NCBI GenBank assembly: GCA_003389385.1
Contig: QQVM01000006.1
Coordinates: 7,429-46,284 of the forward strand
Length of the DNA stretch: 38,856 nucleotides
Direction of reading: 5' to 3'
Origin: Bacteroidota bacterium
GTDB lineage: Bacteria; Bacteroidota; Bacteroidia; AKYH767-A; 2013-40CM-41-45
Under the pieces are notes generated by a model. It was not told the origin of the DNA and searched no databases. It saw only the letters and a program-made list of their open reading frames with translations. Below are positions 6,123-23,972 of this stretch, in pieces; position 1 is the stretch's first letter, and each line of letters opens with the position of its first letter. A program made the translations under genes and the position numbers.

Positions 6123-7106
6123 ATGAAAGAACTACAGTTTCGTGAAGCCCTCCGGGAAGCTATGAGTGAAGAGATGCGAAGGGATGAACGAGTGTTCCTG
6201 ATGGGCGAAGAAGTAGCTGAATACAACGGAGCTTACAAAGTGAGCCAGGGAATGCTGGACGAATTTGGCCACAAAAGGATAATTGACACGCCGATTGCGG
6301 AACTAGGATTTGCCGGAATCGGCGTTGGAGCTGCGATGAACGGCCTCAGACCGATTATCGAGTTCATGACTTTCAACTTTTCATTGGTTGCGATAGACCA
6401 GGTAATCAATTCAGCTGCCAAAATGATGAGTATGAGCGGCGGACAGTACACTGTTCCGATTGTGTTCAGGGGCCCGACAGCCTCCGCAGGAATGTTAAGT
6501 TCCCAGCACTCGCAGGCATTTGAAAGCTGGTATGCAAACTGTCCTGGTCTCAAAGTAATTGTCCCTTCGAATCCTGCAGATGCAAAAGGTCTGCTCAAGT
6601 CGGCGATACGCGATGATGATCCGGTCATTTTCATGGAAAGTGAACAGATGTATGGAGAAAAAGGGATGGTGCCCGAAGGCGAATACCTCATCCCGATAGG
6701 AGTAGCTGATATCAAAAGAGCCGGGACCGATGTAACAATCGTCTCCTTCGGGAAAATAATTAAAGTAGCACTTGCAGCTGCTGAAGAACTTGCCAAGGAA
6801 AACATCAATGCTGAAGTCATTGATTTGAGGACTGTTCGGCCCATCGATTACAATGCTGTTATCCAGTCTGTTAAAAAAACAAACAGGTTAGTTATCGTAG
6901 AAGAATCCTGGCCATTGGCTGCCATAGCTACTGAAGTCGCATTCAAAGTGCAGAAAGATGCATTTGATTATCTTGATGCACCTGTTGTGCGTGTAATGGG
7001 AGGAGATGTTCCATTACCATACGCTCCCACTCTCATAGAAGCTTACCTTCCAAATCCTGCACGGGTTATAAAAGCAGTAAAGGAAGTAATGTATGTTTCC
7101 CACTGA
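6123..7106 (+). CDS. pdhB: Pyruvate dehydrogenase E1 component, beta subunit
   Basis: One half of the alpha2beta2 E1 enzyme that decarboxylates pyruvate with thiamine diphosphate and passes the acetyl group to lipoyl-E2. The length is 327 residues, as usual for PdhB. Key features are the catalytic glutamate in DTPIAELGF (about 60), the HSQAFE segment with its conserved histidine (about 129-134), and the C-terminal transketolase domain with VIDLRTVRPID and the LDAPVVRVMGGDVPLPYAP ending. No alpha subunit or E2 lies beside it, so they must be encoded elsewhere. An AGAAGG-like sequence precedes the ATG. A second E1-type gene in the window (21894-23972) is a fusion and belongs to a different complex. 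Confidence 0.95.
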   Translation: MKELQFREALREAMSEEMRRDERVFLMGEEVAEYNGAYKVSQGMLDEFGHKRIIDTPIAELGFAGIGVGAAMNGLRPIIEFMTFNFSLVAIDQVINSAAKMMSMSGGQYTVPIVFRGPTASAGMLSSQHSQAFESWYANCPGLKVIVPSNPADAKGLLKSAIRDDDPVIFMESEQMYGEKGMVPEGEYLIPIGVADIKRAGTDVTIVSFGKIIKVALAAAEELAKENINAEVIDLRTVRPIDYNAVIQSVKKTNRLVIVEESWPLAAIATEVAFKVQKDAFDYLDAPVVRVMGGDVPLPYAPTLIEAYLPNPARVIKAVKEVMYVSH

Positions 7107-18812: not shown

Positions 18813-19886
18813 ATGCTGCTGGAAAAACTGGAAGCGATTAAACAAAGATTTGAAGAAGTTGAAAAAGAACTGAGCAGTCCGGATGCAATGTCCGACATGA
18901 AACGTTATGCGCAGCTCAGCAGGGAATACAAGGACCTGAAGAAAATCACGGACAAGTACTACATCTATAAAAATGTACAAAGCAACCTCGATCATTCAAA
19001 AAGCGTTGTAGCCAATGAAAAGGATGAAGAATTCAGGGAATTGGCTAAAGCAGAGTATGATGCTTTGTATGAGGAGAATGAAAAGCTGGAAGAGGAAATT
19101 AAAATGCTGCTTGTACCTGCAGATCCTGAGGATGCAAAGAATGCCATCTTTGAAATACGGGCAGGTACCGGAGGTGACGAGGCAGGTATATTCGCCGGTG
19201 ATCTCTTCAGGATGTATTGCAAGTATGCCGAGCGCAAAGGATTTAAAATCGATATTGTGGATGTGGCAGATGGAAGCGCAGGAGGTTATAAGGAAATAAT
19301 TTTTGATGTGATTGGCGAAGGAGCTTATGGTACATTAAAGTATGAATCAGGTGTTCACAGGGTACAGCGAGTACCGCAGACCGAAACACAGGGACGTGTA
19401 CACACATCAGCTGCCACAGTGGTGGTATTGCCGGAAGCCGACGAATTTGATGTGGACATCAAACCGAATGATATACGGAAGGATTTGTTCTGCTCCAGCG
19501 GTCCGGGCGGACAATCCGTAAACACCACCTACTCTGCCGTGAGATTGACACACATTCCTACCGGTATAGTAGCGCAATGCCAGGATCAGAAATCGCAAAT
19601 CAAGAATTATGAGAAAGCGCTTTCTGTTCTCCGCTCAAGAATATATGAAGTTGAATACAATAAGCGAATGGAAGAGCAAAGCCGTAAACGTAAGACTATG
19701 GTGAGCACAGGAGACCGCAGCGCCAAAATCCGCACTTACAATTATCCGCAGAGTAGAATCACCGATCACAGAATCGGACTTACGATGTATAATCTCCAGA
19801 CTTTTATGGAAGGCGACATTGATGAAATGATTGACGCTTTACAAGTCGCGGAAAACGCTGAGCGTCTTAAAGAGGGAGTGAGTTAA
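18813..19886 (+). CDS. prfA: Peptide chain release factor 1
   Basis: Recognises UAA and UAG stop codons on the ribosome and triggers peptide release. The 357 residues are standard. An N-terminal coiled-coil PCRF domain (about 1-190) contains [22 protein letters not shown]; the catalytic GGQ lies in [17 protein letters not shown]; the C-terminal domain has [30 protein letters not shown]. The RF1-type [13 protein letters not shown] distinguishes it from RF2, which has an internal programmed frameshift that is absent here. The short distance from purM suggests co-transcription. AAAGGAG at 18798-18804 is one of the few clear Shine-Dalgarno-like sites in the window. Confidence 0.97.
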
Positions 19887-21858: not shown

Positions 21859-21889
21859 TTGTTCATTTAATCAGAATCCCGTAGGTTTG
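21859..21889 (+). promoter_or_regulatory. Promoter of the E1 fusion gene, possibly giving a leaderless mRNA
   Basis: TTG (21859-21861), 20 bases, TAGGTTTG (21882-21889). The -7 box ends only 4 bases before the ATG at 21894, so transcription should start at or very near the first codon. Confidence 0.55.
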
Positions 21890-21893
21890 TTTC

Positions 21894-23972
21894 ATGATTA
21901 CCGAAACTCAAAAGAGGGCAAAATACATCGTTGACAAGGAGACTTTAAAGAAAGCTTTTGAACTTGCTTCCACAGCAAGGGCAATGTCGGATTTGTATGA
22001 AGAAAAATCGCAGATCACACAGAAATATGTACATGCCACTTCACGCGGACATGAAATATTACAGATCGCTTTAGGTTTACAACTGAAACCACAGGATTTT
22101 CTGTCCGCTTATTACCGCGACGACAGTATCTTACTCGGAATCGGAATGAAACCGTACGAACTCATGCTGCAACTTCTGGCCAAGCGTGATGATCCTTTTT
22201 CCGGAGGAAGAACTTACTACTGTCACCCCAGTCTGAACAAGCCGGACATGCCAAAAATAATTCACCAGTCGTCCGCCACCGGCATGCAGGCAATTCCAAC
22301 TACAGGTATTGCTATGGGAATTGAGTAAAAAGAGAAAACAGGGCTTGCAGACAAAAATGAAAAAGAGAAAGCAATTGTAGTTTGCTCGCTCGGCGACGGC
22401 TCTGTAACTGAGGGCGAAGTGGCTGAAGCCTTTCAGATGGCTGTACTGAAAAAACTTCCCATACTATACTTTGTACAAGATAACGAATGGGATATCTCCG
22501 CACATGCGAAAGAAATCCGCTCCATGGACGCCAATGAATATGCAAAAGGATTCAAAGGCATGGAAGTGCGCTCCATTGACGGCACTGATTTCATCACCGC
22601 ATATCAGACGATTGAAGAAGTCATCGATATCATGCGCCGGGAGAGAAGACCATTCATGATTCACGCAAAAGTTCCTTTGTTGGGTCACCATACCTCAGGT
22701 GTGCGCCGTGAATGGTACAGGCATGATCTCGAAGAACACAAACAGCGCGATCCGCTCCCGAAATTCCGCAACTATCTTCTCAAATACGGTTTTACTGAAA
22801 AGGATCTTGATCTCATCCAGGAAAAACAGACAGCACATGTTAGGGCGGACTTCGAACAGGCGATGAAAGCCGAAGACCCGAAGCCGGAAGATCTTTTCAA
22901 TTTTGACTTTGCTCCCACTCCTGTGAAGGAAGAAAAAGGAGTGCGCGCACCTCAGGGAAAAGAAAAAACCGTGATGGTTGACTGCGCCCTGTTTGCTGTA
23001 CAGGAACTTATGTCAAAACACAAGGAATGTCTCTTGTACGGGCAGGATGTGGGCGGACGACTTGGAGGTGTGTTTCGTGAGGCAGCAACTCTGGCGCAAA
23101 AATTCGGAGATGACAGGGTTTTCAATACACCAATACAGGAAGCATTCATCATAGGAAGCACAGTAGGCATGAGTGCGGTCGGACTGAAACCAATTGTGGA
23201 AGTGCAGTTTGCGGATTATATCTGGCCCGGACTGAACCAGCTGTTCACTGAAGTGAGCAGATCTTATTACCTGAGTAACGGCAAGTGGCCTGTGAGCTGT
23301 GTGATACGTGTACCGATCGGTGCATATGGAAGCGGCGGACCTTATCACTCTTCAAGCGTAGAAAGTGTACTGAGCAATATACGCGGAATCAAGATCGCCT
23401 ATCCAAGTACCGGCGCCGACCTGAAAGGACTGATGAAATCTGCCTACCATGATCCCAATCCTTGTGTGATACTTGAGCACAAAGGACTTTACTGGTCGAA
23501 GATAAAAGGGACAGAAGAAGCACGTACCATAGAGCCGGACGAAGAATACATTTTGCCATTCGGAAAAGCGAGAAAAGTACTTGATGCAGATGCAGGAAAA
23601 GAAAGCAGCATTGCAATCATTACTTACGGGATGGGAGTTTACTGGAGCACGAAAGCCGCGCAGAATTTTCCCGGAAGAGTGGAGATCATCGACCTGAGAA
23701 CCATTGTGCCTCTCGATACTGAAAGTATCCTTTCATCAGTTAAAAAACATGGCAGATGTCTTGTTGTGACCGAAGAGCCGGTTAACAATTCATTTGCGCA
23801 ATCCATTGCCGGAATGATCTCATCTGAATGTTTTACTTATCTTGACGCACCAGTAAAAGTGATTGGCTCGGAAAACCTGCCTGCTATACCTCTCAACAGC
23901 ACTTTAGAAGCAACCATGGTTCCCAATGCGCAGAAAGTGAGCGATGTTATTTCGGAAGTGCTTGGATTCTGA
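21894..23972 (+). pseudogene. 2-oxo acid dehydrogenase E1 alpha/beta fusion interrupted by an in-frame TAA
   Basis: A 692-codon reading frame encoding fused E1 alpha (about 1-345) and E1 beta (about 357-692), as found in Bacteroidota for branched-chain 2-oxo acid dehydrogenase-like complexes. The frame is open except for one TAA at codon 145 (22326-22328), directly before the region encoding the thiamine-diphosphate motif GDG (167-169) to DN (196-197). Both halves read well: HATSRGHEILQIALGL and CHPSLNKP before the stop, KEKTGLADKNEKEKAIVVCSLGDGSVTEGE after it, then a full beta half with NTPIQEAFIIG, HSSSVES and IDLRTIVPLD. No base is inserted or lost. It is a recent nonsense mutation, a sequencing substitution, or a case of readthrough; homologues should have Tyr or similar here. 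Confidence 0.85.

Follow-up and report, generated by a model that had tools for sequence, protein, structure and literature searches.

Translating the window, the whole 38,856-nucleotide stretch of Bacteroidota contig QQVM01000006.1 analyzed here, we found on its forward strand a frame of 692 codons plus a final TGA (21894-23972) with one internal stop only, an in-frame TAA at codon 145 (22326-22328). The stop separates an upstream open part of 144 residues (21894-22328), which holds the start of an E1 alpha half, from a downstream open part of 547 residues (22329-23972), which holds the remaining alpha half and the entire beta half. When the two open parts were scanned separately against Pfam, E1_dh matched residues 39-142 of the first piece at model positions 18-116 and the piece after the stop at model positions 114-299, followed by Transket_pyr and Transketolase_C. 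Since the E1_dh model positions continue across both pieces, the junction contains no indel, and all three domains of the fusion lie in one frame. The best NCBIfam matches are pyruvate dehydrogenase-type models of E1 alpha and E1 beta, all under their curated cut-offs. Judged by translation and domain content, the frame is a single alpha/beta fusion gene of the 2-oxoacid dehydrogenase E1 family, cut within its alpha half without an indel. Its domain order is that of the Bacteroidota E1 alpha/beta fusion (PF00676 + PF02779 + PF02780; solved relatives 1um9, 1qs0, and 1dtw), from which it differs in being broken at codon 145.

The TAA lies 22 codons upstream of GDG (codons 167-169; 22392-22400), which we take to be the thiamine-diphosphate motif, and the upstream part ends without it. 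The first in-frame ATG, GTG, or TTG past the stop is the GTG of codon 176 (22419-22421), on the 3' side of the motif. These results bear out most of what the original prediction had read from the letters, namely a lone TAA at codon 145 of a 692-codon E1 alpha/beta fusion frame kept on both sides without an indel, a distance of about 20 codons from stop to motif, and the uselessness of reinitiation at GTG 22419, the product of which would lack the motif. Around the stop, two near-identical 14-base stretches lie 33 bases apart (22327-22340 and 22360-22373), the first overlapping the stop codon, and this near-repeat could have served as a template for the TAA change.

We compared the gene with 90 homologues, made up of the best 80 of at least 593 confirmed relatives from genome contigs, nearly all labelled Bacteroidota, and those of ten other family genomes, some of which may duplicate organisms among the 80. 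All 90 have an unbroken frame of at least 681 residues, the family trait that the window gene lacks, and they align with it over nearly the full length at 66.6 to 81.1% identity. That its open parts follow each other along a single domain, and that they align together to a single unbroken frame in each of these homologues, puts a gene split by a stop beyond chance. The column of codon 145 holds Tyr in every homologue (TAT in 56, TAC in 34), the very residue that had been predicted to stand in place of the stop. The thiamine-diphosphate motif of the fusion family is mostly GDA (76/90), with GDG in 14 of the 90 homologues. Codon 144, directly 5' of the stop, encodes Glu, which is found in none of the 90 (Gln in 65); Glu144 and the TAA are two unusual changes inside six bases (22323-22328).

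Strong orthologues, at E values of 1e-57 or better, are present in 39 of the 42 genomes of the order, and among these 39 only the genome under study (G000) has the gene cut at codon 145 (G000:C19:29754-29756). The three genomes without a strong match (G016, G021, and G026; 93, 92, and 79% complete, respectively) may simply be incomplete, and the shorter orthologue frames of G011 and G029 (266 and 572 aa) are perhaps due to contig ends. The genus itself contributes one other genome, a diverged one. Across the 90 homologues and the 39 order orthologues, the stop is thus private to this genome, as expected of a young pseudogene, whereas a programmed readthrough site would be conserved in relatives.

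Conservation is intact past the stop. Downstream of it, 182 columns are invariant across the 90 homologues, and the window gene changes none of them; upstream it changes one of 42 (residue 55). The laxer set of columns conserved in 95% of homologues gives 1 difference in 242 columns downstream and 2 in 67 upstream. When each homologue was put through the same downstream test against the other 89, 72 of the 90 came out with no changed column, 17 with one, and 1 with two. Against the genus relative G001, pN is 0.144 before the stop and 0.139 after it, and pS, which is saturated, is 0.82 before and 0.81 after. Had selection ended at the stop, neutral sites would have diverged by less than about 0.0072 per site from that time on (95% bound). 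With no decay past the stop, again as in a young pseudogene, the 182 unchanged columns indicate that the entire protein was under selection up to a very recent time. To judge from these comparisons, the stop is very young, or unreal, or incompletely effective. An old pseudogene is ruled out by the downstream conservation.

Residues found in no homologue number six before the stop (codons 11, 25, 55, 56, 116, and 144) and three after it (312, 345, and 564), while the ten other family members pooled have 17 before the stop position and 76 after it (Fisher p 0.0038 versus the window gene, in a test picked after the numbers had been seen). This excess before the stop is the opposite of the pattern expected from an untranslated downstream part.

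TAA is otherwise an ordinary stop codon in this genome. Of the 130 frames that stay open for at least 300 codons and end within the sampled DNA, 65 close with TAA, which also parts same-frame neighbors that we take to be SecE/NusG, S6/S18/L9, and IF-3/L35, names recognized from the sequence without a profile scan. A genome-wide recoding of TAA is ruled out by these neighbor pairs and long frames. Two RF-1-type genes, one at window positions 18813-19886 and one on contig C11, are taken as RF1 and RF2. Among the 36 tRNA matches, whose anticodons as read by ARAGORN are all usual, no suppressor with a UUA, CUA, or UCA anticodon was found, in a search that scored 150 of 188 initial candidates and that a weak tRNA could escape. 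The RNA fold around the stop, compared with shuffles, showed nothing notable (z -1.08 and 0.71). The window gene shares with stop-codon recoding or suppression the stop inside a conserved frame but differs in that TAA is read as a stop, both release-factor genes are there, and neither a suppressor tRNA nor the absence of a release factor, either of which would point to programmed readthrough, was found.

A coding-potential scan for in-frame stops, noisy in its output, covered 326,356 bases (9.7%) of the genome, the window included. A first pass scored 654 stops and listed the top 40, of which ranks 1 to 19 and the stop of the window gene (rank 26) were inspected as translations. A second pass took 1411 stops flanked on each side by 30 open codons, 30 of which were left after filtering; ten of these and four from earlier, the window's among them, were inspected, and the other 16 had another frame positive (0.11 to 0.69). 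Among the stops inspected, only two look like lone stops inside one gene, that at 22326 and a TAG at L166:2439-2441 (G000:C8:2439-2441) in a gene of about 327 codons for a secreted protein. Five of the seven relative loci compared with this second gene are open across the stop, their alignments beginning no later than residue 8 and reaching at least residue 304, and its closest relative has 326 aa and 40% identity over 327 positions. Relatives of this gene turn up in 21 of the 395 genomes of the class, with the present genome counted among the 21, and none was found in the ten other family genomes (1/11 family genomes); the gene may simply be decaying.

The genome holds further E1 genes. An intact fusion E1 of 660 aa lies at G000:C9:158946-160925; a 342-aa alpha-type E1 gene adjoining an E2 on contig C3 and a beta-type E1 gene at window positions 6123-7106 are taken as the pyruvate dehydrogenase pair; contig C13 carries an 818-aa E1-like gene; and there are three E2-type genes. 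All but one of the ten other family genomes have a strong match to the C9 paralogue (69 to 74% identity), split in G005 into two pieces on two contigs; the exception is G004 (85% complete), with no strong match. Among solved structures, the best matches to the beta half of the window gene include several 2-oxoacid E1s of differing names. Its top match, 1um9_B, scores 195.4 bits, and the C9 protein scores higher on the same chain (254 bits); with the branched-chain E1 chain 1dtw_B, the C9 protein reaches 260.7 bits versus 175.3 for the window gene. The original prediction had counted the death of the branched-chain-type complex among the consequences of a nonsense mutation, a claim left unsupported here: the complex need not be dead, because the intact C9 fusion E1 matches solved branched-chain enzymes better and the genome has other E1-type and three E2-type genes.

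The start region of the interrupted gene is intact. The octamer TAGGTTTG (21882-21889, forward strand), 4 bases 5' of the ATG, resembles the Bacteroidota -7 promoter box TANNTTTG, part of the consensus TTTG/TANNTTTG given in the available part of a published study (PMC6847099). The same octamer precedes the start in G001, G003, G004, G007, and G008, five of the nine family members with upstream DNA; G010 has TAGCTTTG instead, G002, G006, and G009 have no TAGGTTTG at the assumed start, and G005 is cut by a contig end. None of 24 more distant loci (L012-L035) carries the octamer at this place. A box so near the ATG suggests an almost leaderless message, which would be unusual, since, in the same part of that study, 87% of the transcripts predicted for F. 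johnsoniae have leaders of more than 10 nt (PMC6847099).

With its ATG behind a promoter-like box, the upstream part could be imagined as one of two separately made, cooperating proteins, particularly as split E1 subunits are usual in the family and the solved relatives are separate alpha and beta chains. However, the break sits within the alpha half and not at the alpha/beta border, and two working pieces are unlikely because the upstream piece lacks GDG and the next start is already 3' of codons 167-169, so that we give this arrangement hardly any credence. A real stop that is read through, with Tyr or another residue inserted by a near-cognate tRNA, would yield a useful full-length enzyme at a lower dose and would account for the 182 unchanged columns downstream; the available part of a survey of bacterial in-frame stops under purifying selection proposes such readthrough (PMC7918605). 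Yet no suppressor tRNA is among the 36 found, two release-factor genes are present, the RNA fold at the stop is ordinary, no examined relative has the stop, and a recent event accounts for the same conservation. From the sequence alone, leaky readthrough is possible but unsupported, and we consider useful readthrough improbable. Our literature search on stop codon readthrough in Bacteroidetes and on fusion E1 returned no paper for fusion E1. That the TAA is translated through at a useful level as dose control in a conserved Bacteroidota metabolic gene, without a suppressor tRNA, seems to us more doubtful still. The remaining rival, one wrong base in the assembled consensus with the gene intact in the living strain, is a serious one that we nevertheless consider unlikely. 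It asks for one substitution and no indel, it suits a gene that is otherwise fully conserved downstream and kept by 39 of the 42 order genomes, and the neighboring Glu144, absent from all 90 homologues, could mean locally poor sequence. Against it, stop-creating changes are 282 of the 6219 single-base changes in the E1 gene, and two real-looking lone-stop genes in the 326,356 scanned bases would need about 44 wrong bases, high for a consensus assembly, although this number is rough arithmetic from a window that is not a random sample and a second gene that may be decaying. In this small, non-random sample, the pair of lone stops mildly favors real mutations over random errors.

On balance, and with modest confidence, we favor a very recent nonsense substitution that disabled this E1 fusion copy in the sequenced strain. 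A universally conserved Tyr codon would have become TAA by one substitution, and translation begun at 21894 should stop at codon 145, yielding 144 residues that fall short of the GDG motif; past the stop there is no ATG, GTG, or TTG start ahead of that motif, and the remaining E1 genes of the genome would presumably make the loss bearable. This reading rests on inference in three respects: the reality of the base, efficient termination at it, and tolerance of the loss. In favor of a nonsense mutation are the Tyr in 90 uninterrupted homologues and the single cut copy among 39 order orthologues, the 182 invariant downstream columns left unchanged, the ordinary use of TAA with two release-factor genes and 36 tRNAs without a UAA reader, the second lone-stop gene in the same genome, and the intact paralogues. 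The loss may be tolerated, given that G016 and G021 (92 to 93% complete) have no strong match. On the other side, a base error in the consensus fits identical data, the absence of decay is equally predicted by a base error or by working readthrough, and, with the gene kept in 39 of the 42 order genomes, its loss is unlikely to be neutral in the long run. The original prediction had left a substitution error, a recent nonsense mutation, and readthrough side by side; this was the right set, and we rank the recent nonsense mutation first.

In the available part of the survey, in-frame stops are widespread in bacterial genomes and mostly short-lived, at about the scale of population polymorphism (PMC7918605). 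The cases described there resemble ours in that a gene conserved in all other respects carries one in-frame stop; that work focused on stops at the same place in orthologues of at least two genomes, whereas here the stop is in one genome only. Seen against that part of the survey, the window stop fits the picture of short-lived in-frame stops and is an ordinary event. Automatic annotation would probably call two fragments at this locus. A full-length protein, if one were found, would be surprising, as it would mean UAA readthrough of such a gene with no suppressor tRNA. Should the base prove real, the strain would be without one E1 enzyme that 39 of the 42 genomes of its order retain, which matters for how its metabolism is read.
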